IMG/VR virus record: IMGVR_UViG_3300025030_000294
Span: 1 to 34,921 of that record
Direction: 5' to 3' (one strand)
Origin: a virus
Length of the DNA stretch: 34,921 nt
Shown: one piece after another, positions 2,279-32,269 of the stretch
How positions within the stretch are numbered: position 1 is the stretch's first letter
Layout of the letters: every line of letters starts with the position of its first letter
Notes under the pieces: model-generated
Told to the model about the DNA's origin: nothing
What the model saw: the letters and a program-made list of their open reading frames with translations, nothing else
Database searches by the model: none
Program-made: the position numbers and the translations under genes

Positions 2279-2468
2279 ATACGAGAAATGCAACAACTCG
2301 TTGCATGCAGACTTCAAAAATACAAGTCTACAAGTATTTGTCTTCTTGAATCCTAAACTGTGGGAATGGATTCCAAGAGGACACGTTCTGCCCTTCAAAA
2401 TTGGTTTCGGAAGAGAGTTCGGCCCTATTGTTCTCGTAACTCCTGATCATGAAGATTCGTTGCGTTAA
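2268..2468 (+). CDS. Small protein of unknown function
   Basis: A 66-residue product, not recognised. Its ATG overlaps the end of the upstream gene and its stop lies 20 bases into the polymerase gene, so translation is probably coupled on both sides. There is no strong Shine-Dalgarno of its own. The sequence starts MKIKYEKCNNSLH and ends with a hydrophobic stretch (GPIVLVTPD). No domain motif is visible. Confidence 0.55.
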   Translation: MKIKYEKCNNSLHADFKNTSLQVFVFLNPKLWEWIPRGHVLPFKIGFGREFGPIVLVTPDHEDSLR

Positions 2469-14917: not shown

Positions 14918-15673
14918 ATGACGTGGCAAGAAATCAAAAAAATTCATACTTGGTTGCCTGAAACAAGCGAGAACTGGCATCAGCACGAAAATGGAGGTGG
15001 TTGGGTAGAAAACTCAACACATGTAGCTTTCTCCGCACGGGTGTACAGTAAAGCACTGGTGTACGGTGAAGCACTGGTGTGCGGTGAAGCACTGGTGTGC
15101 GGTGAAGCACTGGTGTGCGGTGAAGCACGGGTGTACGGTGAAGCACAGGTGTGCGGTAAAGCACGGGTGTACGGTGAAGCACAGGTGTACGGTGAAGCAC
15201 AGGTGTACGGTGAAGCACTGGTGTGCGGTGAAGCACAGGTGTGCGGTAAAGCACGGGTGTACGGTGAAGCACAGGTGTGCGGTAAAGCACGGGTGTACGG
15301 TGAAGCACAGGTGTACGGTGAAGCACTGGTGTACGGTGAAGCACTGGTGTGCGGTGAAGCACAGGTGTACGGTGAAGCACTGGTGTGCGGTGAAGCACAG
15401 GTGTACGGTGAAGCACAGGTGTGCGGTAAAGCACAGGTGTACGGTGAAATAAGTAAAACTCCTCCACAAGTTATCTTTCTTCCGTTTTGTGTTTGTCAAT
15501 GCAGTAAAAATGAGGTTGCTGTAGGTTGTCAACACGGGACTCTTGACTGGTGGTTAGCAAATGGTAGAACAGTTGCAACTCAATATAATATCAGTGAATC
15601 AGATATGCTTATTTATGAGAAACTCATCCGTTTCTGTTTTGATCTTATGAAAGAGGAGGAGGTTAGTGCATAA
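14918..15673 (+). CDS. Hexapeptide-repeat beta-helix-like protein
   Basis: 251 residues. An N-terminal cap (MTWQEIKKIHTW, then HENGGGWVENSTHVAFSA) leads into 23 tandem six-residue repeats of the form A-x-V-x-G-x (residues about 40-177), then a C-terminal domain with CQHGTLDWWLANG. The A-x-V-x-G pattern is that of left-handed beta-helix hexapeptide proteins found in phages and plasmids; no acyltransferase active site is seen. It is the second gene after promoter P2, with TGGAGA upstream. Twenty-three units make a long rod if folded as a beta-helix. The many cysteines (repeat position 4 is Y or C) are unusual. Confidence 0.85.
   Translation: MTWQEIKKIHTWLPETSENWHQHENGGGWVENSTHVAFSARVYSKALVYGEALVCGEALVCGEALVCGEARVYGEAQVCGKARVYGEAQVYGEAQVYGEALVCGEAQVCGKARVYGEAQVCGKARVYGEAQVYGEALVYGEALVCGEAQVYGEALVCGEAQVYGEAQVCGKAQVYGEISKTPPQVIFLPFCVCQCSKNEVAVGCQHGTLDWWLANGRTVATQYNISESDMLIYEKLIRFCFDLMKEEEVSA
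15035..15448 (+). repeat. Minisatellite: 23 tandem 18-base units
   Basis: Twenty-three 18-base units without interruption, each coding six residues. Codons GCA (1) and GTG (3) never vary, and GGT (5) varies only in the first unit (AGT). The other differences fall at codon 2 (CGG, CTG, CAG), codon 4 (TAC, TGC) and codon 6 (GAA, AAA). AAA at codon 6 occurs only with CAG and TGC, apart from the first unit. The array has no stop in several frames on both strands, giving long false reading frames. Confidence 0.95.
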
Positions 15674-19816: not shown

Positions 19817-20302
19817 GTGAAAAACATTCTTGTATTTATCCTGTTGGCAGTGTTGGTAATTGTGACTGCTGTTGCATCCAACACAACTCCAAAAGCATTA
19901 CCGCCAGTGGATTGTGACAGCTTGGTGGTAACATGGTTGCAAGTGGACACTCTGGTTATTATGGATACGATCAAAGTGGTCGTTCATGATACTGTGACTA
20001 CAACGATCTATGATACCGCTATTGTTCCTTGCAATCTGTGGAACATTGAGTACATGATTACCGGATATGACCCTTATGCGTGGCCGCCGGACACTTCAGC
20101 ATGGAAAGCAGAGATGTGGCTTTACGATCCTGTAACAATGACGGGAGCAGGATGGGTAGCACAAATGAGATGTGTCGGGCAGTCTGGAGAAAATCGTATA
20201 TTTGAAATTGATACTACCAGTTTTCCTCCACAGAACATTTGGCATGGGGGAATTGGTGCAAAGGAGTTGTTTAGACGGCTTGACAGTCTTTCAACACCTT
20301 AA
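19817..20302 (+). CDS. Secreted or membrane-anchored protein
   Basis: 161 residues from GTG 19817, with AAAAGGAG upstream. The N-terminus (M-K-N, then ILVFILLAVLVIVTAVA) is a signal peptide or anchor. A threonine/valine-rich linker (DTIKVVVHDTVTTTIYDTA) follows, then a globular part rich in W and Y (YDPYAWPPDTSAWK). Two cysteines flank the linker. The D-T-V repeat style is common in exported Bacteroidota-type proteins, but this does not fix the host. Role unknown; envelope or lysis functions are possible. Confidence 0.7.
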   Translation: MKNILVFILLAVLVIVTAVASNTTPKALPPVDCDSLVVTWLQVDTLVIMDTIKVVVHDTVTTTIYDTAIVPCNLWNIEYMITGYDPYAWPPDTSAWKAEMWLYDPVTMTGAGWVAQMRCVGQSGENRIFEIDTTSFPPQNIWHGGIGAKELFRRLDSLSTP

Positions 20303-20336
20303 GTATCTCTTTTTTGATTTTCTAAGGAGTTTCAAA

Positions 20337-20870
20337 ATGCCTATATTTAAGTGCCCGTGGTGTAATGCTATTATGCAGACTGGTGACAAACACAACTGCC
20401 CAAAAGCACCAAGAGCGGAAAAGATATTCAATCTGTTGAACCTTGAGGGGAACTGTTTTGCCGCCTGCTTGCAGTACATCACAAAACTTCCAATGGAAGA
20501 ATTGATGATCGTTGTTTATGGCCGGGATGGTGTTCCTGATGCTTGGTGGGAAGACACTGTGACATATCTTAATGGAAAAGGGTATCATGCGTTATTCTTT
20601 CCTATTAAAGAAGTACCAGAAATGTTTGAGTACATCAAACAAAACGATGACTACTACATTCTGGCCGGGAAGTCGGCAGAACACCCAGAAAGAGGGCATG
20701 CAGTTGTAGGGATTCATGACAACTTGGTGTTCGCAGAGGAAACAGAGATTCTTGAGCCTAAAGTCGCTTGGGTGTTGTTGAAAATGGAAACAAGAGACAG
20801 TTCTGATTGTCCTGTTTGCAATCTTCAAAGGGATGTTGACAAAAAACTATTGGATGTGACGGAATCATAA
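20337..20870 (+). CDS. C39-like cysteine-peptidase-fold protein
   Basis: 177 residues; ATG 20337 has AAGGAGTTT at 20323-20331, so the longer frame from 20172 is not used. A short Cys cluster (CPWC at 6-9 and HNC at 19-21) may bind zinc. Then EGNCFAACLQYI at 37-48 supplies a catalytic-type Cys40 and RGHAVVGIHD at 119-128 supplies His121, the order of the C39/papain-like fold seen in many phage and bacterial small proteins. The usual third residue after H-A-V-V-G-x-x (D or N in a D-P motif) is not evident. It could be a peptidase, amidase or binding protein. A hairpin element follows. Confidence 0.7.
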   Translation: MPIFKCPWCNAIMQTGDKHNCPKAPRAEKIFNLLNLEGNCFAACLQYITKLPMEELMIVVYGRDGVPDAWWEDTVTYLNGKGYHALFFPIKEVPEMFEYIKQNDDYYILAGKSAEHPERGHAVVGIHDNLVFAEETEILEPKVAWVLLKMETRDSSDCPVCNLQRDVDKKLLDVTES

Positions 20871-20925: not shown

Positions 20926-20981
20926 GTGAGTACCGGGGATGTGTAGGTTTCTGAAACTCCTCACTACATACCCCGGCTCAC
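20926..20981 (+). other. Large 18-bp hairpin before the glycan genes
   Basis: GTGAG (20926-20930) pairs with CTCAC (20977-20981), CCGGGG (20933-20938) with CCCCGG (20971-20976), and TGTGTAG (20940-20946) with CTACATA (20964-20970, one G-T). Only small bulges interrupt it. The top loop contains GTTTCTGAAAC, itself a palindrome. No T-run follows. The end is 12 bases from ATG 20994, which makes a translation or RNA-processing control plausible. Confidence 0.65.
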
Positions 20982-20993
20982 TCTGGAAACAAC

Positions 20994-21575
20994 ATGAAGC
21001 TTGGAATTATCATAACATGTAATGATCGCATTGGGTATCTTCCGCACTTACTGTGGCTGATTCAAAAGTACAAGTCCTTTGAAGCGAAAACAGTTGTTTG
21101 TTGTAACGGCCCAAAAAATCCCTACAGCAACATTCACGTTTCTAATCAAGGATTAAATGAGGGGGATATTGATCTCACGCTTCGTGGATACCGTGTTCTG
21201 CAAGAGGATTTGATAATAAAACTGTCGGCAGACTCATGGTTGCTTGACGAACACCGGATTCTTCACATTTTCAACAGACTATACTCAGAGACTTGTGGAT
21301 ATGGTGGGAATTACTGGATCAATGATACAACACTCTCTTCGGACATCTTCTTTTTGAATAGAAAAAATTACGATCTGTTAGAAGAGATTGAACATACAGT
21401 GGGAACTTTTGAAGAACGTTTGTTTGCAGTGTTCAAAGACGTAAAATACATTATACCGCAACGAGAACCTGTTCACCCGAATAATCGTCATAGATGTGAT
21501 CGTCTTGGTTGGGTTATGGAACATACACTCGATTTGAACCTTGAATTTCAAAGGAACTATAACAATGCAGTATGA
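20994..21575 (+). CDS. Glycosyltransferase-like protein (GT-A type)
   Basis: 193 residues. It opens with a beta strand and MKLGIIITCNDRIGYLPHL, typical of a nucleotide-sugar binding start, and has RGYRVL, LIIKLSADSWLLDEH (a D-x-D-like metal site position) and TTLSSDIFFLNRKNYDLL. Small for a GT-A enzyme, so it may be a minimal domain. First gene of a cassette with a methyltransferase, two more transferases and UDP-galactopyranose mutase. The acceptor is unknown. Confidence 0.55.
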   Translation: MKLGIIITCNDRIGYLPHLLWLIQKYKSFEAKTVVCCNGPKNPYSNIHVSNQGLNEGDIDLTLRGYRVLQEDLIIKLSADSWLLDEHRILHIFNRLYSETCGYGGNYWINDTTLSSDIFFLNRKNYDLLEEIEHTVGTFEERLFAVFKDVKYIIPQREPVHPNNRHRCDRLGWVMEHTLDLNLEFQRNYNNAV

Positions 21576-22110
21576 AATGCGTCCTGAAGGGTATCTTAGA
21601 GACGGCTTCAAGAGACTCTTGCGTTTTCTGAAACAACACAGACCTGATGCTGAGTTTATTGTTGAAATTGGTTCCTATACAGGTGAAACAGCCGTGATGC
21701 TTGCAGAAGAGTTTCAAAATGCTCTGATCACTTGTGTAGACAACTGGAAAGGTGGTTACTGTGTTGATGAACGTACAACTCCTGAAATCATGGGGAGTGT
21801 TGAACAAGCATTCGATGCGCGAACAAAGAGTGTGCTCAATATATTAAAGGTAAAAGGGGATTCCATAAGTATTGCACAAGAGGTGTCGGAAAAGGCGTAT
21901 GACATCATTTATATTGATGCAGATCACAGCTATGAAGCTGTTCTTTCCGATATTCGTAACTGGCAACCAAAGCTTTCCATAGGTGGGATACTCTGTGGTC
22001 ATGATTATGACCCATCAAACCCCGGAGTCATGAAAGCCGTGGATGAGTGTTTTAAAGGAGTTTCAACAATTCACACATTTGAGGATAACTCATGGGCAAT
22101 CCTGAATTGA
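21565..22110 (+). CDS. Class I SAM-dependent methyltransferase
   Basis: 181 residues; ATG 21565 chosen because AAGGA lies upstream (the frame opens at 21541). FIVEIGSYTGETAVMLAEEF is the SAM-binding motif I, ITCVDNW the second strand, and YDIIYIDADHSYEAVLSDI, then GGILCGHDYD and PGVMKAVDECF match the Methyltransf_24 group often found with glycan genes. It probably methylates a sugar or small substrate in this cassette. Starts inside the previous gene and ends inside the next. Confidence 0.8.
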   Translation: MQYEMRPEGYLRDGFKRLLRFLKQHRPDAEFIVEIGSYTGETAVMLAEEFQNALITCVDNWKGGYCVDERTTPEIMGSVEQAFDARTKSVLNILKVKGDSISIAQEVSEKAYDIIYIDADHSYEAVLSDIRNWQPKLSIGGILCGHDYDPSNPGVMKAVDECFKGVSTIHTFEDNSWAILN

Positions 22111-22931
22111 TTCTCTGTACTGCAATCAATGAAACGTATGCAGAACGCGCCCTGCCTTATTTAAACTCCATAAATAAGAATGGGAACTTTGATCGTCAAG
22201 TTTGTGTTCTCGTAGCTACAGGAAGCGGTGACTTCTCTTGCATCAAAGAAGATGCGTTTGAGAATATCGAATTTGTAGAGTTGCCACTGTCTGAGAAGGT
22301 ACACCCGAATAGCAACGGATGTATCCAACACGGAGACTTCTTAGAAGCACTTCCTTTGGTGGATGCTGATGACATTATTGTTTTCACTGATGCAGACATG
22401 CTTCTTCAACGGAGTTTGTCCGATCATGAAATTGATTTTCTTCAGAACTTGCAAGAGTCACAAGTGTGTGTTTCCTATAACTGGAGTAAAGAAGAAACAC
22501 TCATCCACGAGGCGGCCAAACTTGGAGGGATTCGGGATGAGGCAAAAGCACGTGAATTTTTTGGGGATTCTTGGAGTAACATGCTGATCTTCAATGTGGG
22601 TGTTCTCGTTGCCAGACAGTGTGATATTGAGAGACTGAGAACAATATATAATGAGTGCATCGGAAACTTTCTTCCTGTGTTTTCACATGTGGCAAGACAA
22701 CAGTTTCTCATGTCACTCATTCTGCAAGTTGAAAAACACGGATTCACTCCACGGATTCTTCCAAATAGTTTTCACAGTCATGGACACAGGCATCCACGAG
22801 AACCTCTGTGTTGTTTTCATTATGAGACTCCTGATGGGAAACTGTGTGACTTCAATGACCCAGAAAATATTCTGTTCGTAGATGAGCCAGATTGGAAACC
22901 TGAAGCAGTGTTGTTCCGACATGCATTATGA
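22092..22931 (+). CDS. Glycosyltransferase, GT8-like
   Basis: 279 residues. It begins with an N-terminal strand (ELILCTAINETYAERALPYL), has a central IIVFTDADMLLQ giving the D-x-D metal and nucleotide-sugar site, then SNMLIFNVGVLVAR and several His near the C-terminus (HSHGHRHP). These features suit a GT8-like or related GT-A retaining enzyme. It overlaps both neighbours and so is made with the mutase. Donor and acceptor are unknown. Confidence 0.65.
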   Translation: MGNPELILCTAINETYAERALPYLNSINKNGNFDRQVCVLVATGSGDFSCIKEDAFENIEFVELPLSEKVHPNSNGCIQHGDFLEALPLVDADDIIVFTDADMLLQRSLSDHEIDFLQNLQESQVCVSYNWSKEETLIHEAAKLGGIRDEAKAREFFGDSWSNMLIFNVGVLVARQCDIERLRTIYNECIGNFLPVFSHVARQQFLMSLILQVEKHGFTPRILPNSFHSHGHRHPREPLCCFHYETPDGKLCDFNDPENILFVDEPDWKPEAVLFRHAL

Positions 22932-24018
22932 TTTCTGTATTGTAGGTGCAGGACTCTTTGGGTCTACATTTGCTTATCAAGCGTCTAAGGACAATAAGAA
23001 GTGTCTTGTCTTAGAACGAAGAGGACACATTGCGGGGAATTGTTATGATGAGAGCCGTGACGGAATTTCGATGTGCTTATACGGGCCGCACATATTTCAT
23101 ACTGCATCGAAACGTGTTTGGGATTTCATAACACAGTTCTCAGATTTTAATCATTATCGTGCAGGAACATTCTCCAGAGTTGGGGATAGATTATTTTCAT
23201 TTCCTGTAAACCTTATGACACTTCACCAACTTTGGGGAGTTAAAACACCGGGGGAAGCAAAAGCACGATTGGAAATAGAGTGTGTTCCAATTAAACATCC
23301 GAGAAACTTTGAAGAAATGTGTCTATCTCTTGTTGGACATGAGATATATGAAACTTTCTTCAAAGGGTACACTGAAAAACAATGGGGAGTCCCGGCAACA
23401 GAGGTTCCAGCAAGAATCGCACAGAGACTCCCGTATCGGACAACTTTTGACAATAACTACTTTAATGACGCATATCAGGGGATTCCTGTTTTAGGGTATA
23501 CACACATTGTTGAAGAACTCTTAACGAATGTTGACCTTCAGTGTAAGGTTGACTTTCTGCAAGCAAAAGATTATTGGATGCGTCGTTGTAATGTTGTGAT
23601 TTTTACAGGGTGTATTGATGAGTTCTTTGGTTACTATTTTGGGGAGTTGAAATACAGGTCATTGAAATTTGAACATGAGAAACTTCCAACACAAGATTTT
23701 CAGGGATGTGCCGCCGTACATTATCCTTGTGCAGACACCCCCTTTACACGGATCATTGAACACAAACATTATACTTTTGGAATACAACCTCTTTCATGGA
23801 TCACACGTGAATACCCTGATTCATGGGAAAGAGGAAAAGACCCTTTCTATCCTGTAAGCGATGCTGTGAGCATGGATAGATTAAGAAAGTATCAACAGTT
23901 GGCAAAAGAACACTTCCCGAATGTTGTGTTTGGTGGTCGGCTTGGTTCCTATCAGTATTATAATATGGATCAAGTTGTTGCTTCAGCATTAGCTACTTAT
24001 GAGAAATTTAAATGTTAA
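22921..24018 (+). CDS. glf: UDP-galactopyranose mutase
   Basis: 365 residues from ATG 22921, which overlaps the preceding stop. It is a flavoprotein that converts UDP-galactopyranose to UDP-galactofuranose. The N-terminal FAD motif is VGAGLFGSTFAYQ, then GGNCYD-like GNCYDE, YGPHIFHT, and FKGYTEKQWG; further on LPYRTTFDNNYFND, FTRIIEHKH and the C-terminal GRLGSYQYYNMDQVV match conserved blocks of the family. Length is normal (about 360-390). The enzyme is uncommon in phages. With three neighbouring transferases it suggests galactofuranose is put onto the virion or host surface. Confidence 0.93.
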   Translation: MHYDFCIVGAGLFGSTFAYQASKDNKKCLVLERRGHIAGNCYDESRDGISMCLYGPHIFHTASKRVWDFITQFSDFNHYRAGTFSRVGDRLFSFPVNLMTLHQLWGVKTPGEAKARLEIECVPIKHPRNFEEMCLSLVGHEIYETFFKGYTEKQWGVPATEVPARIAQRLPYRTTFDNNYFNDAYQGIPVLGYTHIVEELLTNVDLQCKVDFLQAKDYWMRRCNVVIFTGCIDEFFGYYFGELKYRSLKFEHEKLPTQDFQGCAAVHYPCADTPFTRIIEHKHYTFGIQPLSWITREYPDSWERGKDPFYPVSDAVSMDRLRKYQQLAKEHFPNVVFGGRLGSYQYYNMDQVVASALATYEKFKC

Positions 24019-24653
24019 ACTTACCTGATGTTCAATTAGTGACTGTTCGTGGTGGTGGGCATCCACCAGAGTACTTTCTCAAAGCATTGATGTACTCTAT
24101 GAGAGGAATTGAATTTGGTGATGTTCTGTTTCTCACAAGTTCTTCTTGTGGAATCCCCTACAAGATGGAAAAGAAGATTCGAGTACATACAATACCAGAG
24201 TTCAATATTGAGGGGTACAACAAGTTCATGATGAAAGAACTTTGGAAATACGTCAGTTTACGTCATTGTTTAGTTATTCAATCTGATGGTTTCGTTCTCC
24301 ACCCTGAATGTTGGGCAGACGATTTTCTGCTTTACGACTATATAGGTGCAGTATGGGGTGAAAATGATATGTGGCCGGGGAGAGTTGTTGGAAATGGAGG
24401 TTTCAGTTTGAGAAGTAGAAATCTTATCAATCAATGCTCACAATTCTCTGACCCTATAAATGACAATGAGGATCATATAATTTGTCGTACTCATAGAGGT
24501 TGGTTTACAGAACGAAGAATCAGATTTGCAGAGCCAGAGGTAGCCAATCTCTTTTCTTGGGAAGATAATGACCCCGGACACCCAACATTTGGGTTTCATT
24601 CATTTCGACAGAAAGAATATTTAGCACAGGTGCTTGTAACACAGCAAATATGA
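24012..24653 (+). CDS. DUF5672-like glycosyltransferase
   Basis: 213 residues. LVIQSDGFVLHPECW, YDYIGAVWG, VVGNGGFSLRSRNLI, NEDHIICR, FAEPEVANLFSWED and PTFGFHSF follow the conserved order of the DUF5672 family of putative sugar transferases. Its ATG overlaps the mutase stop and its own stop overlaps the terminase start, so glycan and packaging genes are on one transcript. It is the likely partner that uses the mutase product, but specificity is inference. Confidence 0.8.
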   Translation: MLNLPDVQLVTVRGGGHPPEYFLKALMYSMRGIEFGDVLFLTSSSCGIPYKMEKKIRVHTIPEFNIEGYNKFMMKELWKYVSLRHCLVIQSDGFVLHPECWADDFLLYDYIGAVWGENDMWPGRVVGNGGFSLRSRNLINQCSQFSDPINDNEDHIICRTHRGWFTERRIRFAEPEVANLFSWEDNDPGHPTFGFHSFRQKEYLAQVLVTQQI

Positions 24654-26254
24654 TGGGTACTCCTGCTGTAGACATGGTTCCAAGAGTAAGTAGTGACGAT
24701 CTCAGAGCAGAGGTTGTTCGTAAGACCTTTAACAATGAACGCTACTTTCTTGAAACCTTTGTAAGCATCAAAACACAGTCACTTGGTATTCAGCCATTTA
24801 TCTTTAGACCTGTTCAAGCAGACTTCTATAAGAAACGTACCTACCGGGATATTGTTCTGAAGTCAAGACGGCACGGAATGTCCACATTGATTATGGGGAT
24901 TGGTTTAGCGAGGGTATTGACACGTGAGGGATACCGTGTATTGATTGTGTGTCATGAGCCTGAAGCGGCAACAACTATGTTTGAAGACTTGAAAGTAATG
25001 TTCAATAGTCTTCCAAAATGGTTGCAACCAAAAGTGGGTTTGGACAATCAAAGGGAACTCACCTTTCCTGATCTTGGAAGTTCACGTATATCTATCACAA
25101 CGGCAGGGAAAGACATTGCAAGCGCACAGGGGTTAGGGCGTTCAGGAAACGTAAACTTCCTTCACTGTTCAGAATTTGCTTTTTGGCCCTTGCCTAAAAT
25201 GTCCATGACCGCTGTTATGCAGTGTGTGCCTTTGGACGGTGAGGTTGTTATTGAATCAACCGCATTAGGGTATAATCAATTTCAACAATTGTGGGCACAG
25301 TCAGTAAGAGGAGAGGGAAACTACAAAATACACTTCTATGGTTGGAACAAAGACCCAAATTGCCAAATTCCTTTGTTTCCAAGAGAAGAAGAAGTGTTGC
25401 GGAGTGAGGATCATCCGAAACGACTTACTGATACTGAAAAGTCATTGATACAAAAATACGATTTGCCGCTTGAGAGAATAAAGTGGCGCAGATGGAAAAT
25501 CAATGACATGGCCGACCCTGAGAAATTCCCACAAGAATTTCCAATCAATGCGGATGAGTGTTTTCTTCAGTCGGGGAGGCCACGATTTAATCAAACGGTT
25601 ATTAAAGCTATGTTGGATAGCACAAGACTTCCTGCACTTCCAACATGGCCGGATGGAAATCCTGTACCACACGGTTTTAGACTTTTTATTCCACCAAGAC
25701 CGGGATTATCTTGTTGTGCCGGAGCAGACTGTGCAGAGGGGTTGTTAAAAGGGGATAATGATAGCATCACGCTTCTTGATCGTGAAACAGGAGAGGAAGT
25801 GCTTCATGTTTGGGGGAAGCTTGGAACAGACTTAGTTACGAAGTATATCATCCTCATTCATTATATGTATAAGAGTGAGGTGTTTTGGGGGATTGAAAGA
25901 AATGCACACGGACAAACAGTGCTTTCAAATCTATTAACACATGAAGGCTTTCCTTCACGATATATTTATCACTATGCAGATTGGGATGACGCTTTTCAAA
26001 GACTGTCTCAACGTCCGGGTTGGTATACCAGTACGAAGAGCCGACCTATTCTAATTGATGAATATGCGAGCGCAGTAAACAGAAGACATGTGCGCCTTCA
26101 TGACGCTGATAAATTGCGAGAACACCTTACCTTTGTTGTTGGTGACAGTGGAAAAGCAGAAGCACAACAAGGTGCAAATGATGACAGTGTTCTAAGTACA
26201 GCAATTGCTTGGCAAATGAGGAAACACGAGCCATTTACCCAAAGAGGTTGGTAA
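24650..26254 (+). CDS. Terminase large subunit
   Basis: 534 residues, ATPase-nuclease that packages DNA into proheads. KSRRHGMST at 71-79 is a deviant Walker A with the lysine at the front, as in many terminases. VNFLHCSEF at 168-176 is Walker B with S-E instead of D-E, and E-S-T at 202-204 suits the coupling motif. The nuclease part has GAD at 358-360, an acidic ERNAHG near 415, and NDDS near 510. No small subunit is certain; the gene ending at 19021 is one candidate. It precedes the portal gene by one base. Confidence 0.93.
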   Translation: MMGTPAVDMVPRVSSDDLRAEVVRKTFNNERYFLETFVSIKTQSLGIQPFIFRPVQADFYKKRTYRDIVLKSRRHGMSTLIMGIGLARVLTREGYRVLIVCHEPEAATTMFEDLKVMFNSLPKWLQPKVGLDNQRELTFPDLGSSRISITTAGKDIASAQGLGRSGNVNFLHCSEFAFWPLPKMSMTAVMQCVPLDGEVVIESTALGYNQFQQLWAQSVRGEGNYKIHFYGWNKDPNCQIPLFPREEEVLRSEDHPKRLTDTEKSLIQKYDLPLERIKWRRWKINDMADPEKFPQEFPINADECFLQSGRPRFNQTVIKAMLDSTRLPALPTWPDGNPVPHGFRLFIPPRPGLSCCAGADCAEGLLKGDNDSITLLDRETGEEVLHVWGKLGTDLVTKYIILIHYMYKSEVFWGIERNAHGQTVLSNLLTHEGFPSRYIYHYADWDDAFQRLSQRPGWYTSTKSRPILIDEYASAVNRRHVRLHDADKLREHLTFVVGDSGKAEAQQGANDDSVLSTAIAWQMRKHEPFTQRGW

Positions 26255-26255
26255 C

Positions 26256-27734
26256 ATGAAACACAGAACTCACCCGCTTTTTAACTCAAACAATGAACTG
26301 TGGAAGTTCTACATGGACTCCTTCATTGGTGGTGATTTCTATGTTGGGCAAGGGTATCTCCATCAACACAGATTTGAAAGCACGGCAGACTATAGAAAGA
26401 GAATCAAACGGGCATATTACCTGAATTATGTAGAGCCTGTTGTGTCAATTACAAGTAAGTATGTTTGTGGTACGTCACTTTCGAGAAAACCAAGTACAGA
26501 GGGAAAAGATTTCTTTGAAAGCAAGTTTTCACTTGACTGTGATGGACAGGGAACAAGGCTTCCGATGTTCATACGGACAGTCTGTGACCAATCAAGCATC
26601 TATGGGGTAACAGGTGTTTTGGTTGACGGTCTTATCTATGATAAAGAGAGCATCCCTGAAACACCTACAGCAATCGTAGATGAGAAAAACCCACCAAAAT
26701 TACGGATTATCCAACCAACAAAACTGTTGGACTGGTCGGTAAATAGAGATGGGAAATTCAATTGGATTCTTCTTACTTATGTAACTCTTGAGGACAATGA
26801 CCCTGAGAAGAATCGTGGGGAAAAGCAGTGTTACGAGTTGTGGACACCCACTGAAATGCGGTTATACTACCGTGACAAACAAACAAAGGGGAATGATCTT
26901 GCCCTGTATAAAAGATACCCACACAATTGTGGCTGTGTTCCTTTTGTGCAGTTCCCACATTCCAATGTGAATATTGATGGTGTTCCCGAAAGCATGATCA
27001 AAGATATTTCGTTGATCAATCGGGCGATCTTCAATTACTGTTCTTTGGCAGATGAAATTTTCTATCTTCAAACATTCTCACAATTGGTAATTGCTGGAGA
27101 CAAAGGAGAGATTAACCCGATTGTTGTTGGGTCAAGCAGAGCTTTTACTGTTCCGAAGACAAGTCCTTTTCCTCCTCGATATATTGCCCCTGATGCAGGG
27201 CAAGCAGAAATTTTGATCAAACACATTGCTCGTTGCGTAGCAGAGATTTATCGGTTGGCTGTGATCCGTAAGGGAGGATCAGATTCAAAAGATGAATATG
27301 CTACTGCTTATGGTCGGGCAGTTGACTTTGAAGATACAGAAGCAATGCTTGCATCCAAAGCACATCAGATGCAGACGTATGAAAATCACTTGGCAGGAAT
27401 TGTCAACTTGTGGAGAGGGCAAAAAGAGCAACTGTGGAATGCAGAGTATCCAAAAACGTTTGAAGTTAAATCTGTTCAACAGGAGATTTCCGATGCAATG
27501 TTGTTGGATGACCTGATGATGGGGAAAACGTTTATGGCAGAACTGCGTAAACACATTGGAAGACTTGTGATGCCTACATTAGGAGAGGACATGTGGAACA
27601 AGATAGAAAAGGAGATTGAAGCGATTGAAGAGAAACTCTTGCCGACTCTCATTGATGAGGAACATGATACGCCTACAAATGTCTCCGGTACTCCTGCACC
27701 TAAAAAAGACACACCACAAGTGACAAAAAAATGA
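26256..27734 (+). CDS. Portal protein
   Basis: 492 residues. It lies between terminase and lysis/scaffold genes. The N-terminus (ELWKFYMDSF, YLHQHRFESTADYRKRIKRAYYLNYVEPVV) resembles portal families of the DUF4055 or SPP1 type, followed by a beta-rich stem and clip region with WSVNRDGKFNW, and a long C-terminal helix-rich part with acidic EKEIEAIEEK. It would form the 12-subunit ring through which DNA enters. AAGAGG precedes ATG 26256. Confidence 0.88.
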   Translation: MKHRTHPLFNSNNELWKFYMDSFIGGDFYVGQGYLHQHRFESTADYRKRIKRAYYLNYVEPVVSITSKYVCGTSLSRKPSTEGKDFFESKFSLDCDGQGTRLPMFIRTVCDQSSIYGVTGVLVDGLIYDKESIPETPTAIVDEKNPPKLRIIQPTKLLDWSVNRDGKFNWILLTYVTLEDNDPEKNRGEKQCYELWTPTEMRLYYRDKQTKGNDLALYKRYPHNCGCVPFVQFPHSNVNIDGVPESMIKDISLINRAIFNYCSLADEIFYLQTFSQLVIAGDKGEINPIVVGSSRAFTVPKTSPFPPRYIAPDAGQAEILIKHIARCVAEIYRLAVIRKGGSDSKDEYATAYGRAVDFEDTEAMLASKAHQMQTYENHLAGIVNLWRGQKEQLWNAEYPKTFEVKSVQQEISDAMLLDDLMMGKTFMAELRKHIGRLVMPTLGEDMWNKIEKEIEAIEEKLLPTLIDEEHDTPTNVSGTPAPKKDTPQVTKK

Positions 27735-28402
27735 ACATTCTTGCATTTATTATCCCGATGATACCTACAATGGTATACAAAGGGATTGGGTTGTTTAGGA
27801 AAGAGAAAGACAGAAAGCAGGATCAAAAAAGACGGGAAATCGTAGAGAAATCTATTGAGTTTCAACCGGATGAACGTTCTGTTGTTTCTGATTTTGAAAT
27901 ATTGCAGTGCCGAGACTTACAACACAACAATGCAAGAAAGTGGGGGACAAGAAAAGTTTCCTCTCTTAAATATCTTGTAATTCACCACACAGCAACAGAC
28001 AACACAAGAAGTGATTGGTCTGGTATTGCTGATTATGCAACAACTCCAAGTAAAGACAATCACATCTCTACAAAGGGAGCACCCTACATTCCATATCATT
28101 TCGGGGTTGATCTTCATGGTGTGTTTCAATTCAACGATTTGACAGAGGTTACTTGGGCCGCTCGTGGTTACAATATTGTCTCCATTCATATTGCTGTTCT
28201 TGGTAATTTTGAAACCAAGAATGTGAATAAAGGAAATAATGAACTGTCTCCTGTGCTTCACAGTCAATTACGATTGTTGGTCAAAAGTCTCTTGGAAGAG
28301 TTTCCCACTCTACAAGTAAAGTCACATCGTCAATTGGGAAAAATTGCGTGTCCCGGTGACGAGTTGCAAAAGTTTGTTGACTTGAAGGAGTGGGAAGTAT
28401 GA
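27731..28402 (+). CDS. N-acetylmuramoyl-L-alanine amidase endolysin
   Basis: 223 residues. Residues about 80-220 are an Amidase_2/PGRP-type domain: YLVIHHTATDN gives the first zinc His, HFGVDLHGVFQFND and TEVTWAARGYN follow, and KSHRQLGKIACPGD gives the second His and the Cys ligand. It cuts the amide bond between muramic acid and the peptide stem. The N-terminus (MNILAFIIPMIPTMVYKGIGLF) is hydrophobic and followed by a basic stretch, which suggests a membrane anchor or SAR-type signal. Its place between portal and scaffold genes is unusual for a lysis gene. It overlaps the portal gene (ATGA). Confidence 0.9.
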   Translation: MNILAFIIPMIPTMVYKGIGLFRKEKDRKQDQKRREIVEKSIEFQPDERSVVSDFEILQCRDLQHNNARKWGTRKVSSLKYLVIHHTATDNTRSDWSGIADYATTPSKDNHISTKGAPYIPYHFGVDLHGVFQFNDLTEVTWAARGYNIVSIHIAVLGNFETKNVNKGNNELSPVLHSQLRLLVKSLLEEFPTLQVKSHRQLGKIACPGDELQKFVDLKEWEV

Positions 28403-28740
28403 CAGAAACAAAATTGGAAGTTGCAGGAACAAAGAACATTGTGTTTGAAATAACATGGGTTAAATTAGTTGTAGGTCTTGTATCTCTTGCCGTAATATTA
28501 GGAGGGTATGTTACACAAATTGCAGTTCAAACAGCACATGCACAGGCATACGAGACAGTTCAAACACAAATAACAACATTTCTAAGTACAGCAAGTGAAG
28601 ATGTATTTGTTCATAATGATGTTCCTGAAGTAACAAAGAACTATATCATGACAAATACAGTAAGTGCAACACAATTTGGTGACTTCTGCACAAAAGTTAT
28701 GTGTCGTTTGGATACAATAGAAAGTAAGTTACGAAATTAA
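28399..28740 (+). CDS. Single-span membrane protein, possible lysis factor
   Basis: 113 residues from ATG 28399 (AAGGAGTGGG upstream), overlapping the endolysin stop. A hydrophilic N-terminus of about 24 residues leads to one membrane span (WVKLVVGLVSLAVILGGYV), then an outside-facing helical domain. Next to an endolysin this suggests a holin-, antiholin- or spanin-like role, but no family motif is seen. Confidence 0.55.
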   Translation: MTETKLEVAGTKNIVFEITWVKLVVGLVSLAVILGGYVTQIAVQTAHAQAYETVQTQITTFLSTASEDVFVHNDVPEVTKNYIMTNTVSATQFGDFCTKVMCRLDTIESKLRN

Positions 28741-28797
28741 AAAGTCTCTGGAGAGCTACGTTATCAACCATTCATCTTTTCTTTAAGGAGTTTGAAC

Positions 28798-29100
28798 ATG
28801 GATTTCAGTAAATTAGGCGGCATGGTAGGAACCATTCTTACCAAAGAAAACGGAAAAAACCCCGTTGTGATGTTGATTCTCAGTCAGTTCTCAACTCTCT
28901 TGTCATTTGCGGCAGGACTCACAGAACATGAAGCTCACGCATACGTGCGTGTCTCCGCTCGCCTGATCCTCAATCTGGAGTGGAAGCTTCGACAGGCTGT
29001 GAACGCTTCCGAAACGCAATACGACGATGCCATTCTCAACGAGTTCGTTGAAGCATGCCGTGAAGTCGAGCCGGGGTACGTGCCTGTAGTCCTCGATTAA
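28798..29100 (+). CDS. Small protein, high-expression codon use
   Basis: 100 residues; AAGGAG at 28785-28790 lies seven bases before ATG 28798. The sequence (MDFSKLGGMVGTILTKENG, then helical regions and an acidic end) matches no family I know. Codons are C/G-ending (CTC, ATC, CGC, GAC), as in the coat gene, pointing to high expression. Beside scaffold and coat, it may be a virion or assembly protein. Confidence 0.65.
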   Translation: MDFSKLGGMVGTILTKENGKNPVVMLILSQFSTLLSFAAGLTEHEAHAYVRVSARLILNLEWKLRQAVNASETQYDDAILNEFVEACREVEPGYVPVVLD

Positions 29101-29130
29101 ACGGCGCAATTGCTTCATAATCTATTCACA

Positions 29131-29147
29131 GGTAAACGGTGTTTACC
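29131..29147 (+). other. 7-bp hairpin with GGT loop
   Basis: GGTAAAC pairs perfectly with GTTTACC around a three-base loop between the small protein and the scaffold gene. There is no T-run. It probably marks mRNA processing or stability rather than termination. Confidence 0.5.
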
Positions 29148-29168
29148 CTTAAACTGAGGTAACAGGAA

Positions 29169-30008
29169 TTGGTGAACAAGAAAAAGCAAACACCTTTCAG
29201 TCCCGGAGCTTTTCCATACTTGGATACTGCTCCTGCTCCTGCACCAGATAACAACGCGCCATTTGACATCAATAAGTTGAATACACGGGATCAGCAAATT
29301 TTTAATGCAGGCTTTGGGAAAGCGAAAGGTGCGGAAGACAAAACTCAGGAAGAATTGGCCAATCTCAAAACTGAGTATCAGGGTGTGTTAACAAAACTCA
29401 CTCAACAAGAACAGTCGGCTACCCTTACAAAGCAGGAATTGGAAGCTCTGAAAACGAAGAAACGTGAGTTGGAAGACGCAACAATGACTGCTGAACAGAA
29501 ACATGCTCGTGACTTGCAAGAAGTGCAAGAAACACACAAGACAGCTTTAACGACGGCACAAGCTGAATCGGCAAACTGGAAAGCACAGTTTGAAAACACG
29601 CTTCTTGAAAATGCCTTGACCTCTGAAGCTGTCGCACAGGATGCTTTTATGCCTTCTCAGGTTGTTGCCATGATGAAATCCATTACGGTAGCACATCCCA
29701 TTCAAGAGGATGGGAAACCAACAAAGTATGAACCTCGTGTCAGCATTGTTGGTGAGGACGGGAAAGCCAAACTGGTTCCCGTAAAAGATGGCATGACTCA
29801 CTTCCTCAAGAGCAACCCGAACTTGAAGAAGTCTCAAGTTGTTCCGGGAACTCAGAGTTCCAAGCAAGGAGAGATTCTTGACAAGGCAGGTGTGGTTATC
29901 ACCAAAGCGCAACTGATGGATGCACGTTGGGTGAATAGCAACACCGAGAAGGTTTCTGAGTTGTTAGCTTCTGGTGACTATGGAAGAATCTTAGCACAGA
30001 AAGACTAA
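29169..30008 (+). CDS. Prohead scaffolding protein
   Basis: 279 residues from TTG 29169 with GAGGT upstream (the adjacent GTG 29172 is also possible). A proline-rich N-terminus precedes a long coiled-coil-forming segment of K, E, Q and A (about residues 50-130), then a basic and mixed C-terminus (KPTKYEPRVSIV and later KAQLMDARWVN). This composition and the position directly before the coat gene are typical of scaffold proteins that guide head assembly and then leave. Confidence 0.85.
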   Translation: MVNKKKQTPFSPGAFPYLDTAPAPAPDNNAPFDINKLNTRDQQIFNAGFGKAKGAEDKTQEELANLKTEYQGVLTKLTQQEQSATLTKQELEALKTKKRELEDATMTAEQKHARDLQEVQETHKTALTTAQAESANWKAQFENTLLENALTSEAVAQDAFMPSQVVAMMKSITVAHPIQEDGKPTKYEPRVSIVGEDGKAKLVPVKDGMTHFLKSNPNLKKSQVVPGTQSSKQGEILDKAGVVITKAQLMDARWVNSNTEKVSELLASGDYGRILAQKD

Positions 30009-30071
30009 CCTCTGTTTCTAAGGGTGTCAGTAACAAGTTAGCATTATCACAACAAACTAAGGAAGACTATC

Positions 30072-31049
30072 TTGAAAAACAAACTGTGGTTCATTGGAGA
30101 GCATGCTCCGCTTTCCAGTTACACCCTGAACACACAGGCTGACTCCCATAGTGACTTTATTCCTACACTGTGGGCTTCACGGGCACTCGCGTTCTTTCAC
30201 CAGAATGCGATTATGGCCGGATTGGTGAATCAGGACTACAAGCAAGAAATTCAGAACCTGGGCGATACCGTCAATGTTCAGATTTTCAACAACCTTGTGG
30301 CGAACACCAAATTGCCGGACACGCCTGTGACCAAGCAGACTGCACAGGGTAAGAAAGTTCCGGTTACGTTGAGCTACCATAAGGAAGCAACTTTCCTTGT
30401 GGAAGACGTGCTCGGAGCACAAGCGAAGTTGGACATCGTAGATGGGTACATGCGGAAAGCCGCAATTGCTCTTGCAAACGATGTTGACAGCGTATTGACC
30501 GCTCAATACGCAAATGTCGGAACTTCGATGACTGTTGGAACAGGTGCAACTGCCATGACTGAAGCATTGATTCTCTCAGGTCGCCGGAAACTCAATATGA
30601 TGGAAGTTCCTTACGAGGATCGTCATATCGTTGTTCCTGACTTTGAGGACATGCTGAAGGTGGACAGGTTCACAGCCAATGACAAACTCGGTTCCAGCGT
30701 TGCGATCCGTACCGGACAGATCGGTATGATTCACGGCTTCCGTGTTTACGAAGACCCTCGCATTTGGAATCTTGTCGGGTCTGGTGGTGCAGTCCACAAC
30801 CTGATGTTCCATCGTGACGGTATTCTGTTTGTCACTCGTCCACTTCCTCTTCCTCCCGCCGATTCCGGCACAAAGGGAATCTATATGGAAATGGACGGCG
30901 TAGGTTTCCGTCTGTTGTACTCTTACGACAACGATTACCTCGCTACAAAGATTACCGTGGACGTTCTGTACGGTGTGAAGGTCGTTCATCACCCGACAGA
31001 TCAAACGATCTACAAAGCTCCGTTGATTGACATTCAAACCAACAACTAA
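30072..31049 (+). CDS. Major capsid protein, P22 coat-like
   Basis: 325 residues from TTG 30072, with AAGGAAG upstream. It follows the scaffold gene. FIPTLWASRALAFFHQNAIMAGLVNQDY, then GDTVNVQIFNN, LSYHKEATFLVEDV, ALANDVDSVLTAQY and the C-terminal VLYGVKVVHH are the pattern of the P22-type HK97-fold coat family. Codon choice is C/G-rich, as expected for the most abundant protein. A 14-bp hairpin follows the stop. Confidence 0.92.
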   Translation: MKNKLWFIGEHAPLSSYTLNTQADSHSDFIPTLWASRALAFFHQNAIMAGLVNQDYKQEIQNLGDTVNVQIFNNLVANTKLPDTPVTKQTAQGKKVPVTLSYHKEATFLVEDVLGAQAKLDIVDGYMRKAAIALANDVDSVLTAQYANVGTSMTVGTGATAMTEALILSGRRKLNMMEVPYEDRHIVVPDFEDMLKVDRFTANDKLGSSVAIRTGQIGMIHGFRVYEDPRIWNLVGSGGAVHNLMFHRDGILFVTRPLPLPPADSGTKGIYMEMDGVGFRLLYSYDNDYLATKITVDVLYGVKVVHHPTDQTIYKAPLIDIQTNN

Positions 31050-31058
31050 GAGCTTTCA

Positions 31059-31102
31059 GTGGGCAGGGGTAGAGTAGATATTTTGGAGCTACCCCTGCCC
31101 AC
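31059..31102 (+). other. 14-bp perfect hairpin after coat gene
   Basis: GTGGGCAGGGGTAG at 31059-31072 pairs without mismatch with CTACCCCTGCCCAC at 31089-31102; loop 16 bases. TTTT comes only 14 bases later, so it is at best a partial terminator. It probably protects coat mRNA or lowers expression of the following GT9 gene. Confidence 0.75.
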
Positions 31103-31138: not shown

Positions 31139-32269
31139 TTGGCTGTAACAAGTGTTATCAACGAGCATGGTCAGCGTGTTCCTGTACCGTGGAATTGGCA
31201 TGACATCCTGCCTGACTGGTTCGATGGAAAACAAATAATTCCCACGGCACACGTTCATAATTTCAAAAGCCCTGATCCTCCGCAACTATGGATTGAGAGA
31301 ATTGGTGGGGGTTATGGAGATGTTATCCATCTCTTGTCTGCAATAGAGGATAAGATTTTCGAGTTTAAGGAACAGTATGGGCCGCAATCCCGTATTATTC
31401 TCAGTTTCCCCTCTGTTCATCACTTCATGTTAGAACAACTCAAACAATATGGTGTTGAAGTTGTGAGTAGCGAGAATCTTGATGAGCACTTTGGAAAGAC
31501 CTTCAATTTCTTAACTCACGCTATTGTTAATTCGAGGGAACACATAAATCTTCTCTGCCCTTGCGATGATCATGAAGTAGGTACAAAATTCAAACCTTTT
31601 AAATCAAGGGTAGAGATTTTTCATGAAGCGTGTGAAGTCAACCGTCCTGTGCGACCCCCGATTCTCAGATTCAAGGAAAGAGGGGAAAATCCGTTTCCAA
31701 AGAAGCAAAAGGTTGTCTGTATTTGCTTACGTTCAATTGATCGTTTTAAGGATTGGCATTTTGATGGTTGGTTGGAAGTTATCAAAGTCTTGCAGAAAAA
31801 AGGGTATTTCGTCTACACAAGTGATCTTGAGTTCAGTTTTGAAGGTGTTCCCGCCATTGTAAAGAAGTCTATGCCTGAAGTGACTCGTTACCTTGCATGG
31901 ACAGACGCTATCATTGGCCCGGATACAGGCCCGATATTTCTGGCCGCTTCACAAGGGGTCACTACCATTGGATTGTTTGGAAAGACAAGTGGGTACTTGT
32001 TACTTGAGAAACATTATATCAATGGACACGCAGTTCAAGTAATACGTCCTGATCTCTGTAAACGCCCTTGCTACCACAGTAAAGAGCACAGAGGATTCTA
32101 CTGTGATCAATATGGATTCTCTGGTGCGGCAACAGGTTGCATGAACGACATCACCGTAGAGATGGTCGTTAGTATGTTTGAGGGCTTAGAGAAGTATGGA
32201 CAGATCGGTAATACACGTTGGGATAAAGAGGAGTTTCAAAAGTATGTGCCCGACTACTACAGATTCTAA
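31139..32269 (+). CDS. GT9-type glycosyltransferase
   Basis: 376 residues from TTG 31139, with AGGAG at 31127-31131. The second half has KVVCICLRSIDRFKDWHFDGW, VTRYLAWTDAIIGPDTGPIFLAAS and TIGLFGKTS, the heptosyltransferase (GT9) core; near the N-terminus IGGGYGDVIHLL is the usual glycine-rich loop. These enzymes move sugars from nucleotide donors. Its place between coat and connector genes is unusual and suggests virion protein glycosylation or a sugar product tied to the mutase cassette. The C-terminus has several Cys (CKRPCYH, FYCDQYG). Confidence 0.85.
   Translation: MAVTSVINEHGQRVPVPWNWHDILPDWFDGKQIIPTAHVHNFKSPDPPQLWIERIGGGYGDVIHLLSAIEDKIFEFKEQYGPQSRIILSFPSVHHFMLEQLKQYGVEVVSSENLDEHFGKTFNFLTHAIVNSREHINLLCPCDDHEVGTKFKPFKSRVEIFHEACEVNRPVRPPILRFKERGENPFPKKQKVVCICLRSIDRFKDWHFDGWLEVIKVLQKKGYFVYTSDLEFSFEGVPAIVKKSMPEVTRYLAWTDAIIGPDTGPIFLAASQGVTTIGLFGKTSGYLLLEKHYINGHAVQVIRPDLCKRPCYHSKEHRGFYCDQYGFSGAATGCMNDITVEMVVSMFEGLEKYGQIGNTRWDKEEFQKYVPDYYRF

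Follow-up and report, generated by a model that had tools for sequence, protein, structure and literature searches.

Sugar decoration of virions has been shown in few phage systems (actinobacteriophages), and, to our knowledge, none of the sugar-decorated actinobacteriophages makes its own furanose donor. According to a passage in one report (PMC11600133, citing Freeman et al. 2023), cluster O (Corndog-type) mycobacteriophages modify the proteins of their capsid and tail tube by means of an O-methyltransferase and three glycosyltransferases in tandem, and virion glycans can change antibody recognition. The window analysed here, the whole stretch of 34,921 nucleotides of IMG/VR virus record IMGVR_UViG_3300025030_000294, contains a cassette of five genes at 20994-24653 that includes a methyltransferase, a predicted glycosyltransferase, and a UDP-galactopyranose mutase. 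The features considered are as follows.

20926..20980, + strand: RNA hairpin immediately 5' of the first cassette gene (-28 kcal/mol, z -2.9)
20994..21575, + strand: ORF of 193 aa, no family assigned; the 'GT-A-like' enzyme of the earlier note
21565..22110, + strand: SAM-dependent methyltransferase, Methyltransf_24 (PF13578, E 3.5e-19; alternative start TTG 21541)
22092..22931, + strand: glycosyltransferase (GT) of an unclassified viral family, predicted LgtC-like GT-A fold (fold, invariant DxD)
22921..24018, + strand: UDP-galactopyranose mutase (Glf; TIGR00031, 348.7 bits)
24012..24653, + strand: DUF5672 protein, probable glycan enzyme (PF18922)
24650..26254, + strand: terminase large subunit (TerL), 3' neighbour of the cassette (PHROG terminase families)
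30072..31049, + strand: major head protein (P22 coat type), candidate acceptor (phrog_283, PF11651)
31059..31102, + strand: perfect 14-bp inverted repeat between the capsid and GT9 genes (-33.2 kcal/mol, z -5.4)
31139..32269, + strand: GT9-type glycosyltransferase, flanked by the major head gene and the head-tail adaptor (PF01075)

The earlier note had described five overlapping genes on one strand that end at the terminase start, and the coordinates, strand, overlaps, and terminase junction were all correct. The five frames listed are the most probable ones, and the last of them overlaps the TerL start by 4 nt. The terminase and portal neighbours were confirmed by PHROG profiles. A second contig completed the phage map as a circle of 53.9 kb with siphovirus-type tail genes. 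The closed 53.9-kb genome showed no match to tyrosine integrase (PF00589), which argues against lysogenic conversion, and the uncultured phage is virulent-looking. The terminase, portal, and polymerase shared just 26-29% identity with known phages. When the terminase, the GT, or the DUF5672 protein was used singly as the query, the only match was another contig of the same phage; these scans thus gave no close relative, whether carrying the cassette or lacking it, for a gain/loss comparison or a dN/dS test. The GC3 of the cassette was 0.32-0.38 versus 0.34-0.35 in the terminase and DNA polymerase genes, so a very recent import does not look likely. Promoter and terminator scans remained at chance level, and Rfam gave no match. 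Just 5' of the cassette, the region 19817-20870 codes for a cysteine-peptidase-like protein and for a 161-aa protein that looks secreted. The DNA polymerase of the phage has a uracil-DNA-glycosylase domain, and the phage also encodes an N6/N4 DNA methylase of the ordinary kind.

The mutase assignment was borne out by the profile searches. The protein exceeded the equivalog cut-off of TIGR00031 (348.7 versus 303.75 bits), matched PF03275 with 235 bits, and contained an FAD-binding Rossmann domain (PF13450, 68.7 bits). An alternative start at ATG 22882 adds 13 residues that are missing from homologues. Across 358 aligned columns, the enzyme showed 47% identity with E. coli Glf. It keeps the equivalents of E. 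coli H59, Y151, W156, R170, Y181, R247, R278, E298, Y311, and Y346, while N stands at the D348 position, a replacement shared by 16 of 81 bacterial relatives. Because the H59 equivalent was histidine in all 174 mutase relatives compared, this residue does not discriminate between substrates. The closest solved mutase by sequence was 4mo2 (Campylobacter). It is well supported by sequence that the enzyme would make UDP-galactofuranose from UDP-galactopyranose, and because no epimerase match was found in the phage, UDP-galactose would be supplied by the host. Relatives of the mutase are spread across Bacteroidota, Bacillota, Spirochaetota, and Pseudomonadota, and the phage enzyme lay on a long branch whose placement in the tree is not trusted. 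The mutase had been called rare in phage genomes; it is indeed uncommon, with relatives in 88 of 50,697 deposited phage records (0.17%), but it is widespread and also occurs on 289 pattern-matched IMG/VR contigs.

The GT had been described as GT8-like, and this description holds for its predicted fold and motif but not for sequence-family membership. The AF2 model (pLDDT 81.5, pTM 0.84) found LgtC (1g9r), a GT8 galactosyltransferase, as its top PDB match in Foldseek (E 1.3e-8, probability 1.00, TM 0.54). The family alignment (A2) showed an invariant DxD (D100 and D102; TD[GA]D) together with invariant H228, H230, H232, and H277. None of the 13 GT-family members matched a Pfam glycosyltransferase family, GT8 included, and therefore we use the term LgtC-like fold rather than GT8 member. 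The family also had no PHROG or PDB-sequence match and was absent from approximately 820 bacterial genomes and, by tblastn, from 50,697 deposited phage records. A scan of genome contigs with the GT likewise turned up no bacterial relative. The GT is a candidate galactofuranosyl- or galactosyltransferase.

A survey of relatives for co-occurrence, as suggested in the earlier note, supported the pairing of the GT with the mutase. Relatives were gathered by scanning with the GT and were grouped at 95% identity (17 other groups) or 70% identity (13 groups). The mutase was the immediate neighbour of the GT or lay one gene further off in 12 of the 17 viral groups at 95% identity and in 10 of the 13 at 70%. 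In L169, a Methyltransf_24 (PF13578) protein is encoded in the gap that separates the GT gene from the mutase gene, and genes related to the methyltransferase occupy the same gap in L174, L180, and L195. Both gene orders occur, with the reversed order in L192 and L193, and the cassette mutase does not group with other GT-linked viral mutases, a hint at most given the long branch; the pairing thus does not look like one intact inherited block. Since unrelated viruses share it, these phages probably synthesize a sugar coat of their own and attach it. The remaining 5 of the 17 groups showed no mutase in their available records, which are possibly fragments, so the GT may not require UDP-galactofuranose. 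In L207, a fusion joins the GT domain to a domain of the protein O-heptosyltransferase family TIGR04414 (218 bits versus a cut-off of 200), which points to a protein acceptor there.

Among the other cassette genes, the methyltransferase was confirmed as Methyltransf_24 (70.1 versus a cut-off of 26.3 bits) and the last gene as DUF5672 (PF18922, 72.7 versus 24.4 bits). The former probably methylates a sugar or glycan; it weakly matched the PDB sequence 6g7d, 'Methyltransferase domain protein' (E 0.007), which may be a sugar O-methyltransferase but is not counted as evidence. The DUF5672 family has invariant DG and GNGGF.LRS motifs, and its homologues occur within the UGM/GT cluster of L081 and in L209, there at a distance of about 3 kb from the GT relative. 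The reading of the first ORF (20994-21575) as GT-A-like was unsupported. This ORF matched nothing in Pfam, PHROG, NCBIfam, or PDB, and neither the 50,697 phage records nor the fetched loci contained a homologue; its single-sequence structure prediction reached a pLDDT of just 35.8, too low for a fold to be read from it.

Directly 3' of the major capsid gene, a GT9 gene (31139-32269) had been overlooked. It scored 48.3 bits against PF01075 (gathering score, 22 bits) and weakly matched the NCBIfam models TIGR02193 (26 bits) and TIGR04414 (18.6 bits), well short of the cut-off in each case; by score it is not a TIGR04414 member (cut-off, 200 bits). The GT9 enzyme is a probable partner of the cassette. 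The inverted repeat that precedes it (31059-31102) probably acts in transcript-level control.

From these results, we give an even chance to the cassette being a phage-encoded glycosylation module that puts a methylated, furanose-containing glycan on virion proteins. The mutase, with reduced FAD, would turn host-made UDP-galactopyranose into UDP-galactofuranose, the step best grounded in sequence. The LgtC-like GT would then transfer this furanose, or a neighbouring galactose, to an acceptor glycan, as suggested by fold and linkage, although its specificity is our reading. The Methyltransf_24 enzyme may O-methylate the glycan, and the DUF5672 protein and GT9 may extend or start it, with GT9 as the best candidate for the protein-priming step. 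The acceptor would be a head or tail virion protein modified in the cytoplasm during assembly, and the outcome would be particles with a methylated, furanose-containing coat. We infer a virion-protein acceptor because the cassette overlaps the terminase gene on the same strand, GT9 follows the capsid gene, the L207 fusion carries a protein O-heptosyltransferase domain, and the Corndog-type phages provide a precedent. Synthesis of an activated furanose and the presence of enzymes for its transfer are well supported by the intact mutase active site, the LgtC-like fold, and the GT/mutase pairing in a dozen other viral groups, where a methyltransferase often accompanies it. We infer likewise the sugar identity, the acceptor, and the enzyme activities. 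The earlier note had proposed that the phage makes and attaches a methylated galactofuranose sugar; the part concerning an activated furanose and the presence of transfer enzymes stood, whereas attachment to the virion is a presumption and a methyl group on the sugar is at most plausible. More tentatively, and with considerable doubt, the GT could found a virus-specific family that uses mutase-made UDP-galactofuranose and builds a methylated galactofuranose coat on the particles.

Against a virion acceptor, the adjacency to terminase and capsid genes also fits modification of the host surface late in infection, and GT9 falls under the TIGR04414 cut-off. It is possible, with a probability that we judge to be low, that the cassette instead alters the host envelope during infection (lipopolysaccharide, capsule, or another surface glycan), either blocking superinfection or keeping released virions off debris. 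Bacterial mutases usually serve surface polysaccharides, GT9 enzymes are mostly lipopolysaccharide heptosyltransferases, with TIGR02193 as the best weak NCBIfam match of the phage GT9, and the secreted-looking and cysteine-peptidase-like proteins are encoded just upstream. However, none of the five cassette proteins matched GtrA flippase or polytopic Gtr families in profile searches, and an unsystematic look noticed no flippase-, polymerase-, or membrane-anchored GT-like ORF among them. In addition, the seroconverting phages known so far are mostly temperate, yet this phage has no tyrosine-integrase match; its overlapping cassette genes are placed amid packaging and head genes, and the L207 fusion indicates a protein acceptor in that relative.

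The GT and mutase could cooperate on another furanose, such as arabinofuranose or N-acetylgalactofuranose, which we consider improbable. Mutase homologues can use other UDP-pyranoses, as the Campylobacter homologue does with UDP-L-arabinopyranose (PMC10615251), and the nearest solved structure, 4mo2, is from that genus. The phage protein, however, satisfies the UDP-galactopyranose mutase equivalog model, and no UDP-xylose/UDP-arabinose pathway enzyme was seen in the phage; the histidine at the H59 position, shared by all 174 relatives compared, carries no weight either way.

That the cassette genes came from a host polysaccharide locus and are neutral cargo or in decay is very improbable. A Streptococcus suis phage record does hold a mutase amid metal-resistance and transposase cargo at the end of the record, but here five intact, tightly overlapping frames have a phage-like composition and retain the mutase active-site residues. 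Because the GT family is missing from the approximately 820 bacterial genomes, simple acquisition from a known host locus does not account for the cassette.

DNA modification is a frequent role of phage glycosyltransferases. Arabinose is attached to hydroxymethylcytosine in RB69-type phages (PMC12838424), and an oligosaccharide-modified thymidine has been proposed for YerA41 (PMC9023294). A sugar-bearing hypermodified base in the phage DNA that protects against restriction, in the manner of the glucosylated or arabinosylated cytosine of T4-like phages, is nevertheless scarcely credible here and was rejected for want of a hydroxymethylase: neither overlapping contig matched the thymidylate synthase family (PF00303, which includes dCMP/dUMP hydroxymethylases), the uracil-DNA-glycosylase domain and the ordinary methylase also speak against it, and the cassette sits among late genes, away from replication genes.

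If modification of the virion is correct, phages carry the genes for turning host UDP-galactose into a methylated galactofuranose coat, and a GT family without a Pfam, PHROG, or PDB-sequence match gains a testable donor. Such glycans perhaps also affect adsorption. An enzyme of LgtC-like fold that transfers galactofuranose would be useful in itself.

Compared with the Glf enzymes of E. coli (1i8t) and Campylobacter (4mo2), the phage mutase likewise passes the equivalog cut-off and keeps the catalytic residues, but it is phage-encoded, lies outside a polysaccharide operon and on a long branch, and has N at the D348 position. The stand-alone mutases of Rhizobium/Agrobacterium T4-like phages and Streptococcus prophages are also phage-encoded and share 33-50% identity with the cassette mutase; in the two records inspected, no annotated glycosyltransferase or methyltransferase adjoins the mutase. 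With LgtC-type retaining galactosyltransferases (CAZy GT8), the GT shares the predicted fold and the DxD motif, with 1g9r as the top structural match, but at the sequence level no similarity to GT8 or to any Pfam glycosyltransferase family was detected, and its donor may be UDP-galactofuranose rather than UDP-galactopyranose; we know of no earlier tie between an LgtC-like fold and galactofuranose transfer. The autotransporter O-heptosyltransferases (TIGR04414, Aah/TibC) provide the domain fused to a GT family member in L207, and the phage GT9 has the same wider fold but is unfused and outside that family by score. As in cluster O, several glycosyltransferase-type genes and a methyltransferase, both kinds confirmed here, occur in a tailed phage without an integrase match, and the proposed outcome, read here from the genes, is the same, a methylated virion glycan. 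Unlike the cluster O phages, this phage showed no homology that would make it an actinobacteriophage, its GT comes from an unclassified family, and it adds a nucleotide-sugar mutase that would provide its own furanose donor.

The window is a virus record whose likely genes all lie on the + strand. The earlier note had described a cassette of five overlapping open reading frames (ORFs) ending at the terminase start, and all five were found, with mutual overlaps and a short overlap with the terminase gene. The base composition of the cassette agrees with that of the terminase and polymerase genes. The features are as follows.

upstream of the cassette: hairpin
20994-21575, +, first ORF
21565-22110, +, methyltransferase
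22092-22931, +, LgtC-like glycosyltransferase (the GT)
22921-24018, +, putative UDP-galactopyranose mutase
24012-24653, +, DUF5672 protein
24650-24653, +, overlap of cassette and terminase genes, 4 nt
between the coat and GT9 genes: perfect 14-bp inverted repeat
31139-32269, +, GT9-family glycosyltransferase, between the P22-type coat and head-tail adaptor genes

The methyltransferase (PF13578) and DUF5672 protein (PF18922) scored well over gathering, and the mutase exceeded the curated equivalog cut-off (348.7 versus 303.75 bits), in agreement with the earlier calls. The "GT-A-like" reading of the first ORF found no support: its 193-aa product showed no family match or homologue in any search made, and its fold prediction was unsuccessful. 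Directly upstream of the cassette, the product of 19817-20302 has an N-terminus resembling a signal peptide, and an overlapping gene (20172-20870; phrog_5845, unknown function) carries a papain/C39-like motif (GNCFAAC...RGHAVVGI). A lone gene before the cassette (14918-15673) encodes a YdcK-type beta-solenoid repeat protein (PF18836), a phage family of unknown function. Another contig from this phage, L002 (3300025012_000487), differs from window positions 21118-30216 by short indels, including frameshifts in the DUF5672 and portal genes, which are probably assembly errors in L002.

The mutase shares approximately 47% identity with its E. coli counterpart. Equivalents of E. coli H59, Y151, W156, R170, Y181, R247, R278, E298, Y311, and Y346 were retained, and one conserved aspartate, D348, is asparagine, as in 16 of 81 bacterial relatives; these positions are taken as the active site from what is generally known of the family. 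Judged from sequence, the mutase is probably active. Because homologues begin near the equivalent of residue 14, the ATG at 22921 is the likely start. Of the 93 viral mutases in the comparison (IMG/VR loci L003-L081 and L169-L185), 50 have lysine at the R247 position; of the 81 bacterial ones, none does. Phage mutases are already known from 88 deposited phage records; in the two inspected, the mutase is apart from annotated glycosyltransferases.

The GT, a 279-aa protein, had been called GT8-like. Its confident AlphaFold2 model (pLDDT 81.5, pTM 0.84) had the galactosyltransferase LgtC as best PDB match (E = 1.3e-8), but at the sequence level nothing substantial was matched in Pfam, PHROG, or PDB. 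Profile-guided scans, seeded with one distant homologue adjoining the mutase in L056, recovered family members in 17 further groups of IMG/VR sequences (95% identity). The DxD motif (D100 and D102) and several histidines are invariant across the aligned family, and the predicted structure identifies the GT as an LgtC-like glycosyltransferase. None of the 13 aligned members matched a Pfam glycosyltransferase family, and none of six further members tested matched a PHROG. The profile recovered 6/6 viral positives, most not used in building it. Among bacteria it was run on 25 genomes that carry a mutase and on two phyla (396 and 399 genomes), and it detected no family member in any of them. When three members served as single-sequence tblastn queries, 50,697 deposited phage records yielded no family member.

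In 12 of 17 groups at 95% identity (10/13 at 70%), the GT has a mutase gene next to it or with one gene intervening; because the seed was picked for mutase linkage, near relatives do not count as independent cases. Five GT groups showed no mutase within the sequence available. Three observations favour functional coupling of GT and mutase: the gene order is reversed in L192/L193, the pair is kept in the more divergent L184/L206, and the window mutase branches apart from the other GT-linked viral mutases, subject to long-branch effects in the tree. A PF13578 methyltransferase lies between GT and mutase in L169, with related genes there in L174, L180, and L195, and DUF5672 and other sugar genes surround the mutase in L081. 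In L207, the GT domain forms one protein with a protein O-heptosyltransferase domain of the autotransporter type (TIGR04414, 218 bits against a cut-off of 200); this fusion (L207:3986-6730) also has a middle domain and runs off the contig end.

A second IMG/VR contig, 3300025154_000276, overlaps the window at both ends, by 9,505 bp with 100% identity and by 6,115 bp with 99.98% identity, and the two together close into a 53,940-bp map. The phage looks like a siphovirus, since the extra 19 kb, as read by eye, carries genes for replication and for the tail, one of the latter encoding a 1,076-aa tape-measure-like protein. A family A DNA polymerase (2449-4887; PF00476, 229.7 bits) is fused to an N-terminal family-4 type uracil-DNA glycosylase domain (PF03167, 105.6 bits). 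The head module runs terminase, portal, endolysin (amidase), scaffold, P22-type coat, GT9, head-tail adaptor, and minor head protein. The sequence places the predicted mutase, GT, methyltransferase, and GT9 among head and packaging genes.

In the proposed mechanism, host-supplied UDP-galactose would be converted to UDP-galactofuranose; no epimerase match was found in the phage sequence. The GT may transfer galactofuranose or linked galactose, the methyltransferase would cap the transferred sugar, and GT9 and the DUF5672 protein may begin or lengthen the glycan. The acceptor, the weakest step, would be a virion protein. Modification of the host envelope by the cassette is a serious rival. Attachment of the sugar to DNA is disfavoured; no thymidylate-synthase-family match was found in the phage sequence from both contigs. 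A virion protein is favoured as acceptor because of the gene position, the lack of a tyrosine-integrase match in the closed genome, the L207 fusion, and the precedent of cluster O mycobacteriophages. Phage virion glycosylation itself has been described before; the novelty is that viruses repeatedly pair a mutase with a glycosyltransferase family not yet classified, and that in the window this pair sits within the head and packaging region. In cluster O mycobacteriophages, three glycosyltransferases and an O-methyltransferase are reported to modify the capsid and tail tube (PMC11600133).
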